From positions 1,984,001 through 2,048,000 of the forward strand of contig NZ_CP071796.1 of NCBI RefSeq assembly GCF_017498525.1: a stretch of DNA of 64,000 bases, given 5' to 3'. This stretch comes from Ottowia testudinis. GTDB lineage: Bacteria > Pseudomonadota > Gammaproteobacteria > Burkholderiales > Burkholderiaceae_C. This document shows positions 36,869 through 54,836 of this stretch, piece after piece; position 1 is the stretch's first letter; each line of letters starts with the position of its first letter. The notes beneath the pieces were generated by a model. It saw only the letters and a list, made by a program, of their open reading frames with translations, was not told where the DNA came from and did not search any database. Both the position numbers and the translations under genes were made by a program.

Positions 36869-36975
36869 GGGTTCGATGAGAACGGCAAAAGGGGCATTTT
36901 AGAGGGGATGGGCGTGTGCGCGGTACACCACGCCGGGCGATTCGGTTCGCATGCGCTCGTGTAACCTTGGTTTGG

Positions 36976-38526
36976 ATGGATCGCCCCGACCGCCCTTCCC
37001 GCGAATGGTGCCAGATGTTGGTGCATGCGCGCCGCCAGCATCCCGCTTGGGTTGTGCTGGCGGCGCACCGCGCGCCACTCATCCTGGCGTGCCTGCAATC
37101 GCTGCTGCAATCCCGCGTCGGCGGCATCGACCAGGAAGAAGCGGTGCAAAGCCTGGCCGCCATGCTGGGCGAATACGCCAACGACCCCGATTTCGAGGTC
37201 GGCACCAGCGACCCGGACGAGTTGCTGGCCCAGGCGCGGCGCGACATCACGCAATGGATCGGCCGGCGCCTGCTGACCGAGCGCGAAGGCCGCCTTCAGG
37301 CCACCGATGCGCTGCAGCACGCGCTGACCTTTGCCGCTGGACTGCGCCAGCGCATCATGACCTCCACCGCGTCGCGCCTGGCCACGGTGCAGCGCGAGGC
37401 CGAGGCGCTGGCCCTGGCGCTCAACCCCGACGCCGAGGCCCGCGCCACCGCGCTGGAGCGCCGCATTGAAGCCCTGCAGGCCGAGCTGGCCGAGGTGCGC
37501 GCCGGCCGCGTGCAGGTGTTGGCGGGGGCGCCCGCCATCGAAGGCATGAAGAACCTGTATGAACTGGCCATGGGCCTGCGCGCCGATTTCCGGCGCGTGG
37601 AAGATTCGTACCGTGCGGCCGACCGCAGCTTGCGCGAGGCCATCATCAGCCAGCAGCAGAACCGCGGCCAGGTGCTGGACAGCCTGCTCGACAGCCACGA
37701 CGCGCTGCTGCAGTCGCCCGAAGGCCAGGTTTTCCACGGTTTCTACGAGCAGTTGCAGGGCGGCGGCGGACTGACCGAGATGGCCGCGCGGCTGAAGGAA
37801 ATCCGTACCCATGCCTTGGCGGCCATGGCCTTCGACGACCAGCAGCGCAGCGATCTGCATTGGCTGGTGCCGCTGCTGGTGCGCGAATCGCGCCAGGTGA
37901 TGGACGCCCGCGCCCGCAGCGAGAGCGACGTGCGCAGCTTCATGCAGACCGGCCTGGCGGCCGAGCACCACCGCGTGGGCCAACTGGTGCAGCAGGTGCT
38001 GCACGCCGCGCTGGGGCTGGACTGGTCGCGCCAGGCCCTGCGCCGCACGCCGGCCGACGTGCCTCCGGCGGCGCAGGCGTTTGCGCAGGGCAACCACCAG
38101 ATCAAGCCGCTGGACCGGCTGGTCTACAGCGCCGCTCAGGACACGCCGGCGCCCGCACTGTGCTTCGACGAGCAGCCCGCGCGCCTGGATGAGATGGACG
38201 ACGCCTTCTGGGCCGCGTTCGACACGCTGGATGAAGCCGCGCTGCTGGCCCAAACGGCCACCGTGCTGGCCACTCACCCTGAGGGGTTGCGCTGGCCCGA
38301 GCTGGTGCGCGCGCTGCCGCCCGAGCACGATTTGCAGACCCTGGCCGTGTGGCTGGACGCCGCGCTGCACGGCGGCACCGATGCGCAAGCCGCCCCGCGC
38401 GTGCAAGTGCCGGTGGCCTTGCCCGATGGCGGCGAATATCGGTTTGACCTGCCCGACATCGCGTTTACGCCAATCGCGCTGCAACGTGCGCGCGGCGACG
38501 CCTTGGCAGCGGAGGAGGGGCGATGA
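36976..38526 (+). CDS. jetA: Wadjet subunit JetA (DUF3375, MksF/MukF-like)
   Basis: Kleisin-like subunit of the Wadjet SMC complex that recognises and loops closed circular plasmid DNA. The 516 aa protein starts with a winged-helix-like helical region, followed by the family-typical REGRLQATDALQHALTFAAGLRQRIMTSTASRLATVQREAEALALALNPDAEAR block around 100-155 and a long helical middle. DUF3375 placement rests on this block and on the three partner genes. ATG 36976 is chosen because no upstream codon is better supported. The stop overlaps jetB as ATGA. Confidence 0.88.
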   Translation: MDRPDRPSREWCQMLVHARRQHPAWVVLAAHRAPLILACLQSLLQSRVGGIDQEEAVQSLAAMLGEYANDPDFEVGTSDPDELLAQARRDITQWIGRRLLTEREGRLQATDALQHALTFAAGLRQRIMTSTASRLATVQREAEALALALNPDAEARATALERRIEALQAELAEVRAGRVQVLAGAPAIEGMKNLYELAMGLRADFRRVEDSYRAADRSLREAIISQQQNRGQVLDSLLDSHDALLQSPEGQVFHGFYEQLQGGGGLTEMAARLKEIRTHALAAMAFDDQQRSDLHWLVPLLVRESRQVMDARARSESDVRSFMQTGLAAEHHRVGQLVQQVLHAALGLDWSRQALRRTPADVPPAAQAFAQGNHQIKPLDRLVYSAAQDTPAPALCFDEQPARLDEMDDAFWAAFDTLDEAALLAQTATVLATHPEGLRWPELVRALPPEHDLQTLAVWLDAALHGGTDAQAAPRVQVPVALPDGGEYRFDLPDIAFTPIALQRARGDALAAEEGR

Positions 38527-39326
38527 GCAACGTGTTTGATCAGCGGGTGCGGCTGAAAGCGAAGGAGGAAACTCCTGAAAACATAGCTGCTGTCCCAGTT
38601 GGCACGCCGACAAGCCCCGGTTTTCTATCTGAACCGACTGCGGTGGAGGCCAATCTTGCCGACACCGCGCGCCTCACGCCCCCGGCCGTCAAAGGCGCCG
38701 TGCAGGAGCTGCTGCGATCCGGCGTGGTCGAGGCCGAGGAGCGCCCCAAAACTTACGAGCTGCTGCGTCAGCGCCCGCTGGAAGTCGCCCAGGCGCTGGA
38801 ACCGCTCGATCTGCAATGCCGCCTGGACGAGGTGCGCGGGCTGGCGTACCTGAGCGTCGGCCGCAACTACGCCGGCAGCGAATCCGCCGCCGCGCCAGCC
38901 GACGGCATAACCGACGCCAGTGCCGATGCCGCCGACACCGGCTGGACGCACCCGCTGGTGCGCCGCCAGCGCCTGAACCTGGAGCAATCGCTGCTGCTTG
39001 CCCTGCTGCGCCAGCACTATCTGACGCACGAGCAGCAGGCCGGCGTGGGCGGCGGCGTGGCGCGTGCCAGCCTGGCCGAACTGGGCGCCGAACTGGCCAC
39101 CCACCTGGGCGAAAGCGGCAGCGACCGCAAGGACGACAAGCGCCTGCGCCAGTTGCTGGCGGGTTTGAAGGAGCACGGCGTGGTCGGCGACGTGCAGGAC
39201 AACGGCCAGGTGCCGATTCGCCCGCTGATTGCGCATGTGGCCAACCCCGACAGTTTGCTGGCGCTGCTGCGGCAGTTCGAGCGACTGACCGAAGGTGGTC
39301 AAGATGCGGGGGAGGGCGCCGCGTGA
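38523..39326 (+). CDS. jetB: Wadjet subunit JetB (DUF4194, MksE-like)
   Basis: KITE-type small subunit of the Wadjet complex; partners JetA and JetC. The 267 aa protein is mostly tandem winged-helix: residues about 50-85 (TARLTPPAVKGAVQELLRSGVVEAEERPKTYELL) and a DUF4194 core with LNLEQSLLLALLRQHYLTHE and LRQLLAGLKEHGVVGDVQ. Residues about 17-40 (ENIAAVPVGTPTSPGF) are encoded by a repeat A copy, so the N-terminal linker is repeat-derived. It overlaps jetA by 4 bp and jetC by 4 bp. Confidence 0.87.
   Translation: MSNVFDQRVRLKAKEETPENIAAVPVGTPTSPGFLSEPTAVEANLADTARLTPPAVKGAVQELLRSGVVEAEERPKTYELLRQRPLEVAQALEPLDLQCRLDEVRGLAYLSVGRNYAGSESAAAPADGITDASADAADTGWTHPLVRRQRLNLEQSLLLALLRQHYLTHEQQAGVGGGVARASLAELGAELATHLGESGSDRKDDKRLRQLLAGLKEHGVVGDVQDNGQVPIRPLIAHVANPDSLLALLRQFERLTEGGQDAGEGAA
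38573..38632 (-). repeat. repeat A copy inside jetB
   Basis: GAAAACATAGCTGCTGTCCC then a degenerate left part with GACAAGCCCCGGTTTTCTAT. It keeps the reading frame. Confidence 0.55.
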
Positions 39327-42300
39327 GCGTGCCCGCAGCGCCCTCCACCGTGACCGAGGCCGAAGCGCCGCCCACTGGCTACGTCCTGCGGCAGCTGCAC
39401 GTCTTCAACTGGGGCCCGTTCGGTGGCCTGCACCAGGCCGAGTTCGACGCCTGGGGCAGCGCGCTGATTGGCGCCACGGGCAGCGGCAAAACCACGTTGG
39501 TGGATGCGTTGATGACGCTGCTGGTCGAGAAGCCGCGCTACAACCTGGCGTCCACCGGCGGCACCGAGAGCGACCGCGATTTGATGTCGTACCTGCGCGG
39601 CGACAGCGGCATGGGCAACACCACCGACAACCGCCACGTCGCCCGGCCCGACAAGACCAGCACCGGCATTGCCGCCACCTTTGTGCTGGGCACGCAGCAC
39701 GTGCGCCTGGCGGGCGTGTTCTGGCTGGAAGGCAGCGGACGCGCCGCCGCCGACCGCAAGGACGTGTGGCTGTTCGAGCAGTCGAACGCGGCGGGCGCTC
39801 TGCACGATCTGCCGCATTGGCTGACCCTGCTCGAGCAGGAAGGCGCGCGCGGCCTGAAGCACGCCGCGCGCCTGGCCGATGGTGTGCAGGTGTTCGACAC
39901 CAAGCGCGCCTACCTGGCCCAGGTGCAGCGCTGCTTTCTGGTGGGCGACAAGGCGTTCGGCCTGCTCAACCGCGCCACGGGCCTGAAGCAGCTCTCCAGC
40001 ATCGACGAGATTTTTCGCGATCTGGTGCTGGACGATCGTTCCGCGTTCGACCGCGCCACGCAGGTGGCGCAGGAATTCGATCAACTGGTGGGCATCCGCA
40101 CCGAGCTGGAGCGCGCCCGCGCCCAGGTGCAGTCGCTGCGCCCGGTGGCCGCGCTGGCGCCGCGCCGCGTGGAAGCCCTGGCGCGCATCGAAGCCGCCCG
40201 GCAACTGCTGGCCGTGCTGCCGGGGTGGTTTGCGCAAGCCGCGCAAACCCATTGGCAGGCTGAGTGCGAACGGCTGCAGGCCCTCATCGACGGCTTGAAG
40301 GCGCAGGCGGCTGATCTGGGCAGCCAGGCCGCTCAGCAGGAAGAAGCCGTGGCCCTGCGCCAGGCTGCCTACGCCAAGGCCGGCGGCGGCGACATCGACA
40401 CGCTGAAAAGCCTGCTGGCGGTGCGTCAGGCTGAGCAGGCCGAGGCCGCACGCCAGGCGGGGCAGTACCAGCAACTCATGCAGCGGCTGGGTTGGCCGGC
40501 TGATCTGACGCCTGCGGCGTTCGAGATCAATCGCCAAAATGCGGCTTTGCGCTTGTCAGACAAGCGCGAGCAGCTGCAAAAAGCAGAGCAATCCGCCTAC
40601 GATGCCGGCGCCCGCCACAGCGACGACGCCCGCCGCTGCCGCGAACTGGAGGCCGAGATCGACAAGATCCGCCAGCGCCCCGGCTCCAACATCCCCAGCC
40701 AGTACCAGGATTGGCGCGCCGACCTGGCCGCCGCCGTGGGCCTGGCGCCGGACGAGCTGCCGTTTCTGGCCGAACTGCTCGAGGTGCTGCCCGCCGAGCA
40801 GCGCTGGCGCGGCGCCATCGAGCGCGCGCTGGGCGGCGAGCGCCTGCGCCTGCTGGTGCCGCCCGCCGCCTTCGCGCCCGCGCTTCGGTGGGTCAACAGC
40901 CGCCACAACATGGGCGTGCGGGTGCTGTTACTCGACCCCCAAGCGGCATTGGCCGAGGCGCGCGAGCGCGGCAGCCGGGCGTTCGACGACGGCTACGTCG
41001 CCAAGCTGAAGCTCAAGCCCCACAAGTTGGCGAGCGTGGCCAAAGCCGTGCTGGCGCGGCGTGACCGGCACTGCGTCGATTCGGTGCAGGCCCTGGCGCA
41101 GACCGATCACGCCATGACGGTGGAAGGTAGCTTTTCCGACACGGGCGGGCGCTACGAGAAAGACGACCGGCGCGATCTGCGGGAAGGCTGGCTGACCGGC
41201 TTTGACAACCGTGACCAGCTGCAATCGCTGGCCGGGCAGCTGAAGGCTGCGCAAGCCGATGCCGCCGCCAGCCTGGCCGCGCGCGACGCCGCGCAGGCCG
41301 AGCACCGGCGCCAGGCGCAGGAAGCGGCGCTGCTGCAAGGGCTGGCGGATCTGCGCTTCGAGCAGATCGACCAGGCCGGGCGCCAGCGCGCTACCAGCGA
41401 GGTGCAGGCGCGCCTGGACGCCTTGCTCCAACCCGGCTCCAGCGTCGACGTGGCGCGCCAGGCGCTGGCCAAGGCGCAAGCCGCCTTGCGCGCGCTGCAA
41501 GCCCAGGCCACGCAACGCGCGGCGGACTTGGCGGTGCAGGCCGATCGGCTCGAATCCGCGCTGCGCAAACTGCAGGATGCGCAGGCGCGTGTCGCGGCGA
41601 ACCCGCACGATGCGTTCGTGCTGGAGCGCCTGCGCGACCAACTGCCCGATCTGGCCGACGTGCCCGCCGGCCAACTCTCCCTGAAAGAGCGCGACTGGCG
41701 CGACCAGACTCAGACCACGCTCACCGCCGCCCGCGACCAGTTGCACGAGTTGGAGAAAAAACTGGTCGCCGCCATGGGCGGCGCGCAAAAGGCAGACACC
41801 GGCGCGCTGGCGCAGGCGGGTACCGAGATGGCGGACATTGAGGCCTACCTAACCCGGCTGCACGTGCTGGAAAGTGAAGACCTGCCCGCCAAGCGCCAGC
41901 GCTTTCAAAACTACCTGAACACCTCCAGCGACCAGGGCGTGACGCAGTTGCTGCAGGCGATCAACGCCGAGGTGGATGAGATTGAACAGCGGATCGACGC
42001 CATCAACGTCACGCTGGCGCGCGTGGCCTTCCAGCCGGGGCGCCATTTGCAACTGGTGTGCCAGCGCGTGGCTGCGCAGAGCGTGAAGAACCTGGAGGCG
42101 GCGCAAAAACAGGTGCGCGTGGCCGCGCTCAAGGCCGAGGCCGACGAAGGCGAAAGCCACTTTCTGGCGCTGCAAGAGGTGGTGCAGCAACTGCGCCACG
42201 CGGCGGCCAACCCGCGCACGCTGGCCTCGCGCGCCTTGCTGGACGCACGCCATCGCGTGCAGTTCGCCATCACCGTCATCGACTCGGCCAGCGGCCAGGT

Positions 42301-42691
42301 CATCGAGCGGCGCACCGGCTCGCAAGGCGGCAGCGGCGGCGAGAAAGAAGTCATCGCCATCTACGTGCTCACCGCCTCCCTCAGCTACGCGCTGTGCGCC
42401 CGGCAGGCGGGCGTGCTGGATGCGGCCGATCTAAAGCCGCGCTTCGCCACCATGGTGCTGGACGAAGCCTTCTCGCGCACCTCCCAGGCCGTGGCCGCGC
42501 GCATCGTCGCGGCGTTGCGGGCTTTCGGGCTGTATCCGCTGTTCGTCACACCCAACAAGGAGTTGCGCCTGCTGCGTGAGCACACGCGCCGCGCCATTCT
42601 GGTGCACCGCGAAGGTGCCCAAGCCCGGCTGGCGTCGATGAGCTGGGCCGAGATCGAGGCGCGTGCGCTCACGGTGCAGCGCGGGGGTTGA
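39323..42691 (+). CDS. jetC: Wadjet subunit JetC (SMC/MukB-like ATPase)
   Basis: SMC motor of the Wadjet complex, which extrudes DNA loops and activates cleavage of small circular DNA. In 1122 aa, Walker A is GATGSGKTTLVDALM at 50-64, long coiled-coils run through the middle (Ala/Gln/Arg-rich), and the C-terminal head has the ABC signature QGGSGGEKEVIA at about 1001 and Walker B TMVLDEAFSRTS near 1047. The GTG start at 39323 overlaps the jetB stop (GTGA). Residues around 405-422 (NAALRLSDKREQLQKAEQ) are encoded by a repeat A copy within a coiled-coil. Confidence 0.9.
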   Translation: MSVPAAPSTVTEAEAPPTGYVLRQLHVFNWGPFGGLHQAEFDAWGSALIGATGSGKTTLVDALMTLLVEKPRYNLASTGGTESDRDLMSYLRGDSGMGNTTDNRHVARPDKTSTGIAATFVLGTQHVRLAGVFWLEGSGRAAADRKDVWLFEQSNAAGALHDLPHWLTLLEQEGARGLKHAARLADGVQVFDTKRAYLAQVQRCFLVGDKAFGLLNRATGLKQLSSIDEIFRDLVLDDRSAFDRATQVAQEFDQLVGIRTELERARAQVQSLRPVAALAPRRVEALARIEAARQLLAVLPGWFAQAAQTHWQAECERLQALIDGLKAQAADLGSQAAQQEEAVALRQAAYAKAGGGDIDTLKSLLAVRQAEQAEAARQAGQYQQLMQRLGWPADLTPAAFEINRQNAALRLSDKREQLQKAEQSAYDAGARHSDDARRCRELEAEIDKIRQRPGSNIPSQYQDWRADLAAAVGLAPDELPFLAELLEVLPAEQRWRGAIERALGGERLRLLVPPAAFAPALRWVNSRHNMGVRVLLLDPQAALAEARERGSRAFDDGYVAKLKLKPHKLASVAKAVLARRDRHCVDSVQALAQTDHAMTVEGSFSDTGGRYEKDDRRDLREGWLTGFDNRDQLQSLAGQLKAAQADAAASLAARDAAQAEHRRQAQEAALLQGLADLRFEQIDQAGRQRATSEVQARLDALLQPGSSVDVARQALAKAQAALRALQAQATQRAADLAVQADRLESALRKLQDAQARVAANPHDAFVLERLRDQLPDLADVPAGQLSLKERDWRDQTQTTLTAARDQLHELEKKLVAAMGGAQKADTGALAQAGTEMADIEAYLTRLHVLESEDLPAKRQRFQNYLNTSSDQGVTQLLQAINAEVDEIEQRIDAINVTLARVAFQPGRHLQLVCQRVAAQSVKNLEAAQKQVRVAALKAEADEGESHFLALQEVVQQLRHAAANPRTLASRALLDARHRVQFAITVIDSASGQVIERRTGSQGGSGGEKEVIAIYVLTASLSYALCARQAGVLDAADLKPRFATMVLDEAFSRTSQAVAARIVAALRAFGLYPLFVTPNKELRLLREHTRRAILVHREGAQARLASMSWAEIEARALTVQRGG
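40526..40586 (+). repeat. repeat A copy inside jetC
   Basis: GCGCTTGTCAGACAAGCGCG then AGCAGCTGCAAAAAGC; in frame within the coiled-coil-coding part. Confidence 0.65.
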
Positions 42692-42784
42692 GGAGCGCAA
42701 CATCCAGACAGCCGAACGCAAAGGGCGCAAAGGTTTTGCAAAGGACGCAAAAGAATACGAATTTCATATGAATAAGCCTGGAAT

Positions 42785-42825
42785 CGTTGCCAGACAAGCG
42801 CAAGCAGCTATGGTTCTTGATGTTT
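42785..42825 (+). repeat. repeat A copy in the jetC-jetD gap
   Basis: CAGACAAGCGCAAGCAGCTA then TGGTTCTTGATG. Confidence 0.75.
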
Positions 42826-42830
42826 TCTTG

Positions 42831-42935
42831 AACGCAAAGGTCGCAAAGATCACGCAGAAGTCGCAAAAAAATTCATCCAAAAAAACTTCTGCGACCTTTG
42901 CGAAACCTCTGCGCACTTTGCGTTCAAAGGTGTTC
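42831..42935. repeat. inverted array of CGCAAAGG units
   Basis: Left arm AACGCAAAGGTCGCAAAG, right arm CTGCGACCTTTGCGAAACC and GCGCACTTTGCGTTC, separated by A-rich DNA. It could form a long imperfect hairpin that acts as a terminator or transcript stabiliser after jetC. Confidence 0.7.
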
Positions 42936-42966
42936 GGTTGAGAACGAAAACGGCGCCTGCCCGCAT

Positions 42967-43000
42967 CTACCTTGCGCAAGCAGCTATGGTTTTTGATGTT
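42967..43000 (+). repeat. second, shorter repeat A copy in the jetC-jetD gap
   Basis: TTGCGCAAGCAGCTATGGTT then TTTGATG; lacks the left part. Confidence 0.65.
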
Positions 43001-43039
43001 TTTCATGGCTGTTTTTTCTGCGCCCTCTGCGAAACCTTT

Positions 43040-43108
43040 GCGTCCTCTGCGTCCTCTGCGTCCTCTGCGTCCTCTGCGTCCTCTGCGTCCTCTGCGTCCT
43101 CTGCGTCC
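43040..43108 (+). repeat. 9-bp tandem repeat (GCGTCCTCT x 7.7) before jetD
   Basis: Seven perfect copies of GCGTCCTCT plus GCGTCC, ending 32 bp before the jetD ATG. A 9-bp unit can expand or contract without changing reading frame in the leader frame that overlaps jetD. Confidence 0.92.
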
Positions 43109-43140
43109 GGCCGTTCCGGCTGTTATGGGTGGCCGCTGAA

Positions 43141-44340
43141 ATGAAATCCCCCGCTGATCTGGCCGTCCAGTTGCGCAGGCAGTGGGCCGATACATCCCGG
43201 CGCCTGCGGCAGCTGCTGTCCGAAGACGGTGCCTGGCCGGTCGAGCTGCCGATTCCGCTGCCCAGTTCGTCGCTGCTGGAAGGTGATCTGCAGGCGGTGC
43301 GCGAGCACGTGCAAGCCTGGCGCGCCGTGCGCATGGGCCGGGTGGTGTGGGCCGCGCGCCGTTATCGCAGCACCGCCGATGCCGTGGAACTGCCGCGCGC
43401 TTGGCAGCTGCGCACCCCCAGCGAATGGGTCGCGGCCATGCAGGACGCCGCCATCGGCCGTGAGTTCGCGCGGCTGGGTCGGCTGGCGGCACTGCCCGCG
43501 GTGCAAGCGCGGCCCGACTGGCTGGCCGTGCTGATCCGCCAGCGCCACCTGCTGGAGAACTCGGCCGAAGACGACGTGGCGCGCGCCATCACCTTGGCCG
43601 CGCAACTGTCGCCCGGTTGCGCCGCCGGGCTGCCGCTGCGCGCGTTGCCGTTTGCCGGCATCGACGGCAAGCTGTGGGAGCGCCAGCGCACGCTGCTCAC
43701 CTTGCTCTTGCAATCGCAGCACCCGGGTCAACTGGATCAAGGGCTGGAGCACTTTTTGGGCGCGCAAACCCCGGGCACGCACTGGCTAGACGTGGTCGAC
43801 CTGGACGGCGGCCTGCTGCCCTGGCCGGTGCTGCGCGTGCGCAGCCACGACTTGGCGCGCCACGGGCCGCCCGGCGATGCGCTGCTGCTGGTCGAAAACC
43901 ACCAGTGCCTGCACCACCTGCCTCCCGCAGGCGAGCTGCCGTGCACGGTGGCCATTCTGGGCGCCGGGCTGAACCTGGCGTGGCTGCGCGCCGACTGGCT
44001 GCAGGGCCGCGCGGTCGCCTACTGGGGCGACATCGACACCTGGGGCCTGACCATGCTGGCGCAGGCGCGCCAGCACCTGCCGCAATTGACGGCCTTGTGC
44101 ATGGACGCCGCCACGCGGCAGCACTTCATCGACCAGGCGGGCGCCGAGCCGGTGCCGGCCACCGTCATGCCGCAGGGGCTGCTGGCGCACGAACAGGCGC
44201 TGTTCGACCAGTTGCTGGCGCAGCCTGACAAGGCGCGCATAGAGCAGGAGCGCCTGCCGGTGGCCTGGGCGCGCGATGCGATTCGGCGGTGGCGCGCAGG
44301 TGGTGCGGATGGCGCGGCGTCAGGCCGTCACAGCAGGTAA
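43141..44340 (+). CDS. jetD: Wadjet nuclease subunit JetD (DUF3322-DUF2220, Toprim-like)
   Basis: Nuclease of the Wadjet system that cuts the looped plasmid. The 399 aa protein has a DUF3322 N-terminal part (SPADLAVQLRRQWAD, ...WRAVRMGRVVWAARRYRS) and a DUF2220/Toprim C-terminal part with the acidic site in YWGDIDTWGLTMLAQARQHLPQL near 300 and LLVENHQCLHHL upstream. ATG 43141 is used; an in-frame GTG at 43129 is the alternative. Unusually it is not contiguous with jetABC. Its 3' end overlaps the opposing methyltransferase gene by 13 bp. Confidence 0.87.
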   Translation: MKSPADLAVQLRRQWADTSRRLRQLLSEDGAWPVELPIPLPSSSLLEGDLQAVREHVQAWRAVRMGRVVWAARRYRSTADAVELPRAWQLRTPSEWVAAMQDAAIGREFARLGRLAALPAVQARPDWLAVLIRQRHLLENSAEDDVARAITLAAQLSPGCAAGLPLRALPFAGIDGKLWERQRTLLTLLLQSQHPGQLDQGLEHFLGAQTPGTHWLDVVDLDGGLLPWPVLRVRSHDLARHGPPGDALLLVENHQCLHHLPPAGELPCTVAILGAGLNLAWLRADWLQGRAVAYWGDIDTWGLTMLAQARQHLPQLTALCMDAATRQHFIDQAGAEPVPATVMPQGLLAHEQALFDQLLAQPDKARIEQERLPVAWARDAIRRWRAGGADGAASGRHSR

Positions 44341-45624: not shown

Positions 45625-47586
45625 TCAGGCGGAACCCCCCACAAATGCCTCCCACCGCGCATGCCACGGTTCCGGCCCGCTCGCATCGCCTTGCGGATCC
45701 TCCATGCGCACGGGCAGCCCGGTGACTTGCCCGAACGTCGACGCGGGCACCGCGCCATCGGCCAGCAACTGGCGCACCAGTTGGCGAAACCCGGCGCCAT
45801 GCTCTTGCAAAAGCGTGCCGGCGCGCGACAGTTCGGCGGCCAGCAGTGCCTCGGCCTCGGCGTTGCTGGGCTGCACGTCGGTGTTGAGGTTGTCGTCCGC
45901 GTCGCTCGTCACGTCGGTGCGTCCCAGGCGCGTGCCGAAGCCGAAGTGACGCACGTAGCGCATCGCGTTGGCCGTGGCGCGGCGAAAGTCGCCCTCGGCC
46001 CCGGTGGTGCAGGCGTCGGGGCCAAACACCAGGTGCTCCGCCGCGCGGCCGGCCAGGCTCACGCAGAGGTCGTCGCGCCACATGCGGCGCGACCAAGCCT
46101 TCTCGTTGCCGCCGCGCATGTAGCCGCCGTTGAACGAGGCCACGTTGATGCGCACTTCTTGCGGCGCGCGTCCCGTCAGCACGGCGTAGACCAGCCCATG
46201 CCCAGCCTCGTGCACCGCCAGCAGCGTGCGGTAGTCGATCGACGCGCGCTGCCGCAGCCCGTGCAGTTCGAAATTGACGGGCAGCACGCAATGCTCGCCT
46301 TGCCAGTCGACACGCAGGTGCTTGGCGTCTCCGCCCAGCGACAAGGGCAGGGTGCTGCCGGCTGGCGCGCCACGCTCAATGGCCCACAGGGCCGCGTTCA
46401 CCAGCGAGCCGCCCAGCACCGCATGCACGGTCGAGAACACCGGCCGCGTGCCTTGCGCGGGAAACACGGCGTTGCCGTAGATCTCATCCAGCACACGCGG
46501 CGCCACGTCGAAACGGATGCCGGCGCTGGCCTGCACCTCGTCGACGTACTGCGCCGCCGTGCGCGCGATCAGCCGCTGGTACGACGCGCGCGAAAGCGAC
46601 GGGTAGATGAAATGGTTGTTGCCCAGCCGCGCCACCTGCTCGGGGCGAAAGCGCTGCCCCAAGGCCTTCTTCACGTCGATGACGGAGAGCTTGCGGCTCA
46701 TGGCGTGGAACACGTCGGCATCGGTGTCGCAGTCTTCCACCGCTTCGGCCAAATGGTCGTACATCTCGTCCAGATTGCCGGTGACGAAGATGAGCAGGCG
46801 CGAGTAATCCGTCTCCCAGCGCGAGCTGTCGCGGCGAAAGCCGTCCACGCGAGACTGCACCTCGGCGGCCGGCCAAGCCATGATTTCCAGCAGCGGCTCG
46901 GTCAGCTTGAGGGCGCGCTTGAGTTCGCGCGCGTCCCAGGCGTCCAGCTGAAACTTTGGCGCTTTGGCCGGCTTGGTGCCGGCTGCGGCAGGCTTGTCTT
47001 CTTCGTCGCCGTCTTCTTCGCGGCGCGCGGCGTCGAACTGGGCTGAGGCCAGGCGGTAGTCCAGCTTTTCCAGAAACGACAGCGCTGGCGCCAGCCGCCC
47101 GTCCGACAGCAGGCCCCACACATCCTGGTAGCGGGCCACCTTGATGTCGTTGCGCTTGTTGTCGATGGTGCGGTAGCGCTGAAACTCATCCAGCAGCAGG
47201 ATACCGGGCTCGCCCTCTACGATGCCCGACTCTCCCAGCATGCCCGAGATGGAATCGGGCGTGTACCAGCCAGCGCCATTGCTGAAGCCGTCCATCTGCA
47301 CTTCAACAAAGCGGTCGTAAAAGCCCAGCTTGTGTGTCAGCGCGCGCGTCAGCTGCGTCTTGCCGGTACCGGTCAGTCCCCACAGACAGACGATCACGGG
47401 GCGCGTGATGATCTCCGGCAACACATACCAGGCGCGCACCGATTCGATGACGCGGTCGATCGTCTCGTCGATGCCGAACAGCTCGGTCTTCAGCTCGGTG
47501 GCGATGGCTGCCAGGTGCGCCTGGCGCTCGGCCAGGCGGCGGTTCAAGGGCTCCCGTTGCAGGAAGCGTGTTTCGTGAATGTCCAT
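45625..47586 (-). CDS. soluble AAA+ ATPase fused to an M41 (FtsH-type) metalloprotease
   Basis: A 653 aa protein with no membrane segment. The N-terminal AAA+ module resembles ClpX/HslU more than FtsH: LFGIDETIDRVIESVRAW, Walker A CLWGLTGTGKTQLT at about 67-80, Walker B GILLLDEFQRY at about 128-138 and sensor-1 LLIFVTGNLDEMY. The C-terminal module is an M41 peptidase: the zinc-binding HEAGH at about 459-463 and the third-ligand region GRAAEHLVFG...TTGAEGDFRRAT with Asp at about 533. All catalytic residues look intact. It starts one base after the small upstream gene. This is probably a cytosolic ATP-dependent protease; the substrate is unknown. A charged insert (EEDGDEEDKPAAAGTKPAKAP) splits the AAA part. 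Confidence 0.85.
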   Translation of the reverse strand: MDIHETRFLQREPLNRRLAERQAHLAAIATELKTELFGIDETIDRVIESVRAWYVLPEIITRPVIVCLWGLTGTGKTQLTRALTHKLGFYDRFVEVQMDGFSNGAGWYTPDSISGMLGESGIVEGEPGILLLDEFQRYRTIDNKRNDIKVARYQDVWGLLSDGRLAPALSFLEKLDYRLASAQFDAARREEDGDEEDKPAAAGTKPAKAPKFQLDAWDARELKRALKLTEPLLEIMAWPAAEVQSRVDGFRRDSSRWETDYSRLLIFVTGNLDEMYDHLAEAVEDCDTDADVFHAMSRKLSVIDVKKALGQRFRPEQVARLGNNHFIYPSLSRASYQRLIARTAAQYVDEVQASAGIRFDVAPRVLDEIYGNAVFPAQGTRPVFSTVHAVLGGSLVNAALWAIERGAPAGSTLPLSLGGDAKHLRVDWQGEHCVLPVNFELHGLRQRASIDYRTLLAVHEAGHGLVYAVLTGRAPQEVRINVASFNGGYMRGGNEKAWSRRMWRDDLCVSLAGRAAEHLVFGPDACTTGAEGDFRRATANAMRYVRHFGFGTRLGRTDVTSDADDNLNTDVQPSNAEAEALLAAELSRAGTLLQEHGAGFRQLVRQLLADGAVPASTFGQVTGLPVRMEDPQGDASGPEPWHARWEAFVGGSA

Positions 47587-47587
47587 G

Positions 47588-47836
47588 TCAATCGTTCCAT
47601 GCGTTGCGAACGGCTTTTTGCAAAGCCACGCGATCGGCCCGGCGCTGCGCGCCTTGGCTGCGGATGTGGCGCCCGGCGGCGCTGCTGACGCTGCGCTCCG
47701 CAAGGGCCAGCGCCACGTGGTTGCGTGGCGGTGGGGCCGGCAGTTGCAGCACCAGCGGCGCGCGCATGCGCCGCAGTTGTTTGAGGTTGGCCCGCGTGCC
47801 GCCAGCGGCGGCGCGCGAGAAGGTTTTGGCACTCAT
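47588..47836 (-). CDS. small basic protein encoded just upstream of the AAA-M41 protease
   Basis: An 82 aa, strongly basic protein starting MSAKTFSRAAAGGTRANLKQ, with few hydrophobic segments and many Arg, Ala and His. I do not recognise a family. The stop codon is one base from the protease ATG, implying translational coupling and a joint role, for example adaptor, substrate or inhibitor. ATG 47836 has a GGAG site five bases upstream. The same frame continues upstream to 47920 through a hairpin. It could be a spurious ORF, but the tight spacing argues otherwise. Confidence 0.55.
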   Translation of the reverse strand: MSAKTFSRAAAGGTRANLKQLRRMRAPLVLQLPAPPPRNHVALALAERSVSSAAGRHIRSQGAQRRADRVALQKAVRNAWND

Positions 47837-47852
47837 GTGCACTCCGAGAAAC

Positions 47853-47892
47853 AAAAAAGCCCCGGCAACAAACGGTTGGCCGTGGGCTTTTT
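47853..47892 (-). promoter_or_regulatory. attenuator-like hairpin in the leader of the AAA-M41 unit
   Basis: Thirteen-base-pair stem (AAAAAGCCC/GGGCTTTTT extended by CGGC/GCCG with one bulge) and a U tract on the minus strand, ending 17 bases before the small gene's ATG. No gene ends just upstream, so it would stop the unit's own transcript. Confidence 0.55.
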
Positions 47893-48360
47893 GGGCCTGC
47901 GGCTGAAATGACGAATGCATTCCAGCCGGGGCGGATGGAGTGCGTCAGATGGGTGCGAAATGAATCAAGGTCATCTTTCAAAACCTCCCGAAGGGCGCGG
48001 CGTGCAAGGTGGCTCGTTGCAGGCCGCGTGTGAAGCAGGAGAGGGTGCGAATTGTGCGGCAGCAGAAGCGGCTTTGCCAAGCCGCTTGTCGCGTGCGTGC
48101 GACGCGGGTGCTTCGCCCCACCCAGTCAAGCGCGTGACTGCGCACGGGCATCATTACCGAGGCCGGCGCCGTCTATCCGCGCGTGATGAAGACCGCGATC
48201 TGGACGCCGGTGCCTGGCCGTGCGGCATGGTGGCGGGGTTGATCCACGCCATTCCCGCCCTGAAGCAGCTGATCGACCGCCTCGTGACCAAGGCGCGGCA
48301 GATCGTGCCGCAGCGGCTGGCGGCGCTGGCATGATGCCAACGCGCCGTGGATTGAAGATG

Positions 48361-49917: not shown

Positions 49918-50523
49918 ATGCTGGAACTCATCGCCGTGGCCACCATCACCCTGCTGGCCGTCATCAGCCCGGGCGCGGACTTCGCCATGGTCACGCGCAA
50001 CAGCCTGCTGCATGGCCGTGCGGCGGGCTTGCTTTGCGCGCTGGGCATCGCGGTGGGCGTGCTGCTGCACGTGGCCTACGCCATGCTGGGCGTGGGTCTG
50101 TTGCTGCGCCAATCGCCCCAGTGGATGGCCGCCGTGCGGCTGCTGGGCGCGGCTTACCTGGTGTACGTGGGCTGGCAAACCTTTCATGCAAGCGCCGCCG
50201 CGCCGCCAGCGGATGAGGGATCGGAGGGGCTCTCTCCGTGGCGTGCTTTTCGTTCAGGTTTTTTCACCAATGCGCTCAATCCCAAGACGACCCTGTTCGT
50301 GCTGAGCGTGTACGCGCAGGTGGTCAACGCGCTGACGCCGCTGGCCATTCGGCTGGGCTATGGCGCCTTCATGTCGCTGGCGCATCTGCTGTGGTTCGCG
50401 GGCGTGGCGACGGTGTTGTCGCAACCGCGTTTGCGCCAGCGTTTGCTGGCCTGCCAGTCGGTGCTCAACCGGGGCATCGGGATGGTGCTGGCGGGGCTGG
50501 GGGTTTGGCTGGCGCTCGGGTAG
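49918..50523 (+). CDS. LysE family amino-acid/metabolite exporter
   Basis: A 201 aa inner-membrane exporter with about six hydrophobic segments. The family signature is at the start: [49 protein letters not shown], followed by [24 protein letters not shown]. Substrates in the family are amino acids or analogues; this one is not fixed. Divergent from the LysR gene. Confidence 0.9.
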
Positions 50524-50560
50524 CCGTGATGACGGGCCGCTGGGGATAATCCCGGGCTTC

Positions 50561-54836
<4,276 letters not shown>

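Follow-up and report, generated by a model that had tools for sequence, protein, structure and literature searches.

According to PMC9020784, Escherichia coli has five AAA+ proteases (ClpXP, ClpAP, HslUV, Lon, and FtsH), and the M41 peptidase among them comes with the FtsH motor and a membrane anchor. An FtsH-like protein has also been reported in phage MIJ3 (PMC6892783). Here we describe a different arrangement in a 64,000-nucleotide stretch of Ottowia testudinis (the window; NZ_CP071796.1, positions 1,984,001 to 2,048,000), whose minus strand encodes a 653-amino-acid (aa) AAA+/M41 protein, P0001 (45625..47586), preceded by a gene for a small basic protein, P0002 (47588..47836), and a structured leader. 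With some confidence we favour reading the unit as an operon under attenuator control, in which P0002 would be co-expressed with a soluble AAA+ protease that is complete in itself and probably descends from phage. The first-pass annotation knew of no system with this layout, and a Clp-D2/M41 fusion was likewise not described in the titles, listings, and passages covered of the open-access PMC literature, outside which most subscription papers and preprints fall.

P0001 joins an AAA+ module resembling the D2 of Clp/Hsp100 proteins (residues ~14-410) to an M41 zinc peptidase (~450-625). Pfam places AAA at residues 66-142 (E 4.5e-5) and Peptidase_M41 at 452-614 (E 8.5e-18). Walker A (G70-LTGTGK-T77), Walker B (D133-E134), HEAGH (459-463), and D533 lie where the first-pass annotation had put them, and its picture of an anchorless fusion protein preceded by a small basic gene is confirmed: a single base (47587) separates the P0002 stop (47590-47588) from the P0001 ATG. 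Beyond those motifs we located a sensor-1 N271, an Arg-finger-like R320, and a sensor-2-like R381, roles that we assume from Hsp100 anatomy. In an alignment of 58 near full-length bacterial and viral homologues (rows of our own choosing), K76, T77, D133, E134, N271, R320, R381, H459, E460, H463, E517, and D533 are invariant, G75 is kept in 57 rows, and the zinc peptidase signature, HExxH plus a third-ligand Asp, is present in all 58. The family thus carries the D2-type AAA features (Walker A/B, sensor 1, Arg finger, sensor 2), in P0001 within one AAA module rather than the two rings of Clp/Hsp100 proteins. DGRL and sensor 1 are 83-174 residues apart in the 58 rows, an insert that we take, again from Hsp100 anatomy, to sit at the pre-sensor-1 hairpin.

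By hydropathy P0001 has no transmembrane segment (highest 19-residue Kyte-Doolittle mean 1.35). Three of the 58 rows reach 1.6 or more, mid-chain, and the N-terminal anchor of FtsH was not found; for comparison, two true phage FtsH proteins peak at 2.7 and 3.2. AlphaFold2 modelled P0001 (predicted local distance difference test score, pLDDT, 88.1; predicted TM-score, pTM, 0.83), and the host genome has a single copy. Judged by sequence, the P0001 family is a soluble single-chain AAA+/M41 fusion with conserved catalytic residues.

On the same kind of evidence, the motor half is ClpB/ClpC/ClpE-like and not FtsH-like. The first-pass annotation had called it ClpX/HslU-like, which did not hold: when the 58-row profile was compared with PDB sequences (60 of 109 matches listed), its AAA part matched ClpE, ClpC, and the D2 of ClpB (E ~2e-15 to 1e-11), and FtsH was matched by the M41 domain only (E 4e-32). 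NCBIfam likewise gave FtsH through the M41 part and ClpA/ClpB for the AAA parts, all well under the cut-offs (e.g., a score of 58 against a cut-off of 600 for the FtsH model TIGR01241), so that the AAA half of P0001 matches Clp/Hsp100 D2 and not the classic FtsH-type AAA. The GR[FL]DR motif is missing from P0001 but also from the FtsH of phage PA5oct, and this motif alone therefore settles nothing. We also compared P0001 with the phage FtsH proteins of PA5oct and MaAM05, which have strongly hydrophobic N-terminal segments and are membrane-anchored. They match P0001 significantly only at residues 453-555, in the M41 part, and we rejected placing them in the same family as P0001.

We consider it very improbable that P0001 is an ordinary FtsH paralogue that lost its anchor. 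Its M41 domain is indeed FtsH-like, and a Foldseek search of PDB with the P0001 model tells against a Clp-type motor in that, among the best 50 matches, FtsH chains fill most of the first 26 places. These chains span both domains, yet with a query-normalised TM-score (TMq) of at most 0.40 and a root-mean-square deviation near 10 Å or more; the second nucleotide-binding domain of ClpB is the better fit as a domain (~434 columns aligned, target-normalised TM-score 0.60-0.66). The D2-type assignment of the AAA half by both NCBIfam and profile, and the restriction of true phage FtsH matches to the M41 part, also argue against descent from FtsH by anchor loss. Searched against BFVD, the model reached a TMq of up to 0.39 among the matches listed.

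Of 299 genomes sampled from the window's GTDB family, 29 have a P0001 homologue (~53-70% identity, E 6e-207 or lower; four candidates scored per genome), one of them (G015) split by a frameshift and another (G141) with a second copy; the remaining listed matches are M41 cross-hits or, in G269, a fragment. Both this recurrence and the purifying selection described below go beyond what chance would give. Within the window's genus, 8 of 29 genomes match, and a broken copy (G015), an interrupted part (G737), and a copy with one in-frame stop (G727) were seen. A pattern-limited scan of genome contigs returned 147 pattern hits and 115 relatives, of which the best 80 were kept (L031-L110). The locus titles of 75 name a Burkholderiales taxon, four are broader (L031, L033, L047, and L079), and L051 is titled Gammaproteobacteria yet has the usual neighbours hrpA and argA. 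Among 398 Pseudomonadota genomes (three candidates scored each) there were two matches at E 1e-40, one being the window's own. No full-length relative was found in plasmid or GenBank phage records.

The family is also common on huge-phage contigs, which, like the leader, the first-pass annotation had not mentioned. A first viral scan gave 10 loci and a second with a wider alignment 47 IMG/VR loci, near-duplicate contigs and partial matches (L173, L176, L177, and L186) included; 15 of the 47 are on contigs of 200 kb or more. The terminase large subunit was matched in 18 of 33 viral records, those without a match including contigs of 227, 236, and 479 kb. Ribosomal protein L2 was found in none of the 33 and in 14/14 control genomes by the same test. 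The genes around the huge-phage loci, named from sequence, are variable, with DnaK-like genes near in five loci and no P0002-like gene seen upstream. In two phage versions (L119 and L120, 9980-11434) the AAA part stands alone in its open reading frame (ORF), without an M41 part in that frame, and in the related L151 and L163 a gene resembling a clamp-loader-like ATPase abuts the AAA-M41 gene upstream. The accessible part of a jumbo-phage review (PMC7824862) names neither FtsH nor M41, and the main text of PMC7162821 does not mention FtsH, M41, ClpX, protease, or peptidase.

In the best trees, the bacterial copies found form one clade, nearly all named Burkholderiales, within viral diversity. 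A tree of 59 full-length rows was built after 11 of the 47 loci L141-L187 had been left out as duplicates or fragments. Under midpoint rooting it unites 23 bacterial rows and the prophage-like L156 in one group (100/100), which is nested in a group of 32 rows (100/99), and other viral rows branch outside the latter. Bacteria are also nested among viral rows in the best trees rooted on FtsH (M41 half; ten more rows dropped as long-branch or near-identical) and on ClpA/ClpB (AAA half; seven further rows dropped whose Walker A the pattern missed), with both outgroups on very long branches. A single viral clade is rejected by the approximately unbiased test when L156 is counted as viral (p 0.030, M41 half). 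L156 is more fairly counted as bacterial, because its contig carries the leader (L111/L112), and a single viral clade is then not rejected (p 0.265 and p 0.101). This result counts against the phage-origin step, as does the thin sampling of bacteria beyond Burkholderiales, i.e., the 398 Pseudomonadota genomes and one pattern-limited scan. A transfer from phage to bacterium is therefore favoured rather than proven. The probable history of the family is a single acquisition by Burkholderiales from a huge phage, followed by retention with some losses.

A captured huge-phage gene might still serve phage-related biology, e.g., degrading phage or host proteins during superinfection, which we regard as unlikely. 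The nesting within viral diversity in the best trees would fit, as would one prophage-like contig on which leader, P0002-like ORF, and protease lie beside adaptor and tail genes. The single bacterial clade (55-59% identity to the window protein across genera), the usual chromosomal place, and purifying selection (ratio of nonsynonymous to synonymous rates 0.32-0.37 against four relatives) point instead to long use by the host. On the prophage-like contig (L112, 190-12849), phage adaptor and tail-fibre genes stand back to back with the leader, the P0002-like ORF, and the AAA-M41 gene, and IHF/HU-like and HipA-like genes follow; a prophage either adjoins or carries the unit.

P0002 is an 82-aa protein with a net charge of +13 that belongs to no Pfam, NCBIfam, PHROG, or PADLOC family; phrog_14104 weakly matches 8 of 22 members of its family (best E 0.074). 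A tblastn search of phage and plasmid records with a 42-aa P0002 consensus found nothing at E 10, where the low-complexity filter may hide matches. The gene recurs with the protease, as does the AAA-M41 order in a single chain: 55 of the 80 bacterial loci have a P0002 homologue no more than 1.5 kb upstream, as do 81 of 119 loci overall (some genomes counted twice). Its stop is often at -8, -4, or +1 from a possible protease start and mostly within ~25 nt; larger gaps, which depend on the start chosen, are 794 nt in L038 and 130-200 nt in a few others. The 25 loci lacking it include 18 Variovorax by title and three cut by contig ends (L031, L067, and L080). Of the 299 genomes, 59 match P0002 at E 0.01. 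In 28 the match is strong (E 1e-14 or lower), and these strong matches occur in 24 of 29 protease genomes versus 4 of 270 others. Weaker matches to its C-terminal half include small basic proteins with, by eye, a PRNPxV...GxHxxS...RRAxK motif. In L129, L131-L135, and L137-L139 such proteins carry a motif like KPRNPLVxAAxxRKAGSHRKSxxAxRRAxKxALKK, directly before argA in L129 and L132 and before a queE-like gene in L139.

Upstream of P0002 the order of elements is conserved: a Shine-Dalgarno-like motif, a short ORF and its stop, hairpin 1, a variable middle, a terminator, and a second Shine-Dalgarno-like motif. In the window these are, all on the minus strand, GGGAGG (47984..47989), the leader ORF MTLIHFAPI ending in UGA (47945..47974), hairpin 1 (47917..47943), whose loop contains CCGCCCCGGC, a sequence complementary to the terminator 3' arm, and a terminator-like hairpin with a U-run (47852..47892) directly before the GGAG and ATG of P0002. 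A leader ORF of this type was found in 48 of 56 loci versus 0.05 loci expected from shuffles, by criteria fixed after leaders had been seen (loosely, GGAG, GAGG, AGGA, GGAA, TGAAA, or TTGAA as Shine-Dalgarno-like motif; 6-11 codons; stop 10-25 nt before CC[CG]GGC). Leader ORFs have 7-10 codons, and the 48 found here encode 30 different peptides, with 47 UGA stops and one UAA. The loci missed were L032, L033, L074, L076, L088, L099, L107, and L110; a looser listing shows a leader-type ORF in L074, L099, L107, and L110.

The hairpins were examined in alignments of 23, 23, and 25 leaders (mostly from a set of 44) plus the window. Hairpin 1 is paired in 81.1% of cells versus 27.9-37.7% when slid, and its covariation score is 0.239 versus 0.151 in shuffles (exceeded by 0/500); paired percentage, cells changed on both sides, and covariation score are all above 500/500 shuffles, with G-C, A-U, and C-G at one pair and C-G and U-A at another. 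Rows L038, L039, L077, and L099 are misplaced in this alignment, and the window row ends before the 3' arm. The terminator, supported mainly by pairing, is paired in 88.9% of cells versus at most 63.6% when slid, with L064 (wrong coordinates) counted as broken. The hairpin-1 loop and the terminator 3' arm could pair as an antiterminator helix in 98.6% of cells. RNAalifold, applied to the first leader alignment, returned a long-range helix only, without covariation, and Rfam had no match at the leader up to E 5.

A covariance model scored the window leader, one of its own training rows, at 57.4 bits. Outside the training rows it found leaders in L100 (84.1 bits), in the Cupriavidus locus L064 (54.1 bits), where the protease follows the leader directly and P0002 was not found, in L112 (44.0 bits), before P0002 alone in L124 (67.0 bits) and L123 (43.5 bits), and at a P0002-like gene of Variovorax (L127, 42.5 bits). 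In 150 searched genomes, 99 of which have some hit at E 0.01, all 13 hits of at least 37 bits abut a P0002 start, and one lower hit (G122:C20) precedes a P0002-like gene. A wider leader regulon was considered and rejected: 17 loci (L216-L232, ~30-37 bits) look by eye like gene-end or tRNA terminators. The conserved leader is specific to P0002 and resembles ribosome-mediated attenuation.

Several results nevertheless count against an attenuator-gated protease operon. Two of the five hairpin 1 measures are not above shuffles (pairs changed on both sides, 104/500; further pair types, 496/500), and the antiterminator helix is invariant and therefore has no covariation support. Of the 16 genomes searched that match P0002 strongly, three (G018, G086, and G147) lack a leader hit at that gene; there is also none at the diverged P0002 of G230 (L126) or before the Variovorax protease genes. 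The AlphaFold2 model of P0002, three helices of low confidence, is poor (pLDDT 66.5, pTM 0.35). In the protease, the GYVG pore signature was not found in the 58 rows: positions 106-109 are variable, 31 rows have W, Y, or F at position 107 (12 gaps), and the pore-loop region has low pLDDT. A heat-shock sigma-32 promoter upstream was rejected as well (mean best score 9.89 versus 9.73 shuffled). Lastly, four genomes have P0002 but no protease: it stands by itself between hrpA and argA in G146 and G265, in a diverged form between the same genes in G230, and elsewhere in G147.

This last result bears on the strongest competing explanation, to which we assign real though minority weight: P0002 would belong to the hrpA-argA locus as a gene in its own right, controlled by the attenuator, and the protease would be a passenger on its promoter and coupling. 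Besides G146 and G265, where leader and P0002 stand without a protease, it draws on the absence of the protease from 4 of the 28 genomes that match P0002 strongly, on a Variovorax leader and P0002-like gene away from the protease (L127, L128, and L130), and on the shorter relatives elsewhere, some beside argA. Against it, 24 of the 29 genomes with the protease have kept P0002, whose stop is mostly no more than ~25 nt from a possible protease start (exceptions reach 794 nt), and the Cupriavidus leader stands directly before the protease. The suggestion of a strictly cognate adaptor or trigger is weakened by the four genomes of 299 in which P0002 is matched strongly and the protease is absent, and by Variovorax proteases without an adjacent small gene.

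The window has a complete type I Wadjet system (JetA-JetB-JetC-JetD, 36916-44337), which ends 1.3 kb downstream of the protease gene and is overlapped at its end by a methyltransferase gene on the opposite strand. The first-pass annotation was right about this neighbour and had suggested a possible stress or defence protease from it. This neighbour and the patchy presence (8 of 29 genomes of the genus) speak for an anti-phage or anti-plasmid module beside Wadjet, yet we judge it improbable. Wadjet genes are at 0/80 other bacterial loci within the available flanks; hrpA is divergent upstream in 46 and argA downstream in 45, and hrpA, argA, and Wadjet are all at 0/10 viral loci compared alongside. 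These counts are lower bounds, because many of the contigs are short and no flank exceeds 10 kb, and the neighbour check covered Wadjet, other defence families not having been searched at the 80 loci. PHROGs and PADLOC gave only partial matches to P0001, with no specific PADLOC family (best E 8e-5 over residues 22-138, in the AAA core), and no full-length plasmid copy was found. The unit often sits between hrpA and argA, and at none of the 80 loci does it adjoin Wadjet, so that a defence role is unsupported. In the window's own genome argA is ~400 kb from the unit, and hrpA (50360-54836) is split across two overlapping frames with a repeat-like insert near the break and another such stretch beyond it; repeat insertion or decay is the probable cause. 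Between jetC and jetD runs a low-complexity tandem repeat (42940-43140; SSASSASSA / GRRGRRG in two frames).

Under the operon reading, with no ribosome on the leader ORF, hairpin 1 would hide the loop element GCCCCGGC and the terminator would stop transcription. If a ribosome were held on that ORF or at its UGA stop, the 5' arm of hairpin 1 would be covered and GCCCCGGC set free; it could then pair with the terminator 3' arm and let transcription proceed into P0002 and the protease. By homology, the AAA half would form a hexameric Clp-type ring that uses ATP to unfold substrates in the cytoplasm and feed them to the M41 peptidase ring; because that ring is built into the same chain, neither a separate ClpP nor a membrane anchor would be needed. 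The weakest step is the part of P0002: this basic protein, expressed together with the protease, might serve it as adaptor, regulator, or substrate and may bind RNA or the ribosome. If a leader that senses translation induces a protease along with such a basic, perhaps unstructured protein, the unit may act in translation or ribosome quality control. More tentatively, and with clear doubt, the family could be a further AAA+ protease class, a soluble Clp-type unfoldase joined to M41, that evolved in huge phages, was domesticated once by Burkholderiales, and serves, behind a stalled-ribosome attenuator, translation-stress quality control with a basic protein. A conserved soluble hybrid of a Clp motor and M41 would break the rule that M41 comes with an FtsH motor and anchor, and its presence on many huge-phage contigs would give phages a complete degradation machine of their own. 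The bacterial branch would offer a culturable entry point and the leader a testable handle on the inducing signal.

Compared with known systems, P0001 is like FtsH in that a single chain carries an AAA+ motor followed by an M41 peptidase with HExxH and the third-ligand Asp, and unlike FtsH in lacking transmembrane helices and in its Clp/Hsp100 D2-type AAA motor. FtsH ternary systems (PMC7159879) also place FtsH within accessory gene sets, but they are MoxR-vWA-based, and MoxR and vWA partner genes were absent among the ten neighbours scanned within the window. With the FtsH proteins of phages PA5oct, MIJ3, and MaAM05 the family shares being a phage-encoded M41 AAA+ protease. The D2 of ClpA, ClpB, ClpC, and ClpE is similar in its AAA core, its FxPExxxR and GxRP stretches, and its sequence and fold matches; P0001 differs in its single AAA module, its own fused peptidase, and the 83-174 residues between DGRL and sensor 1. 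The roles of the FxPExxxR and GxRP stretches in P0001 are presumably those that they have in such proteins. Ribosome-mediated attenuators such as the tna and trp leaders combine a short ORF, alternative hairpins, and a terminator before the first gene, and the leader described here, in which no run of codons for one amino acid was seen, resembles them in its short ORF and terminator and, if the antiterminator helix forms, in its alternative hairpins.

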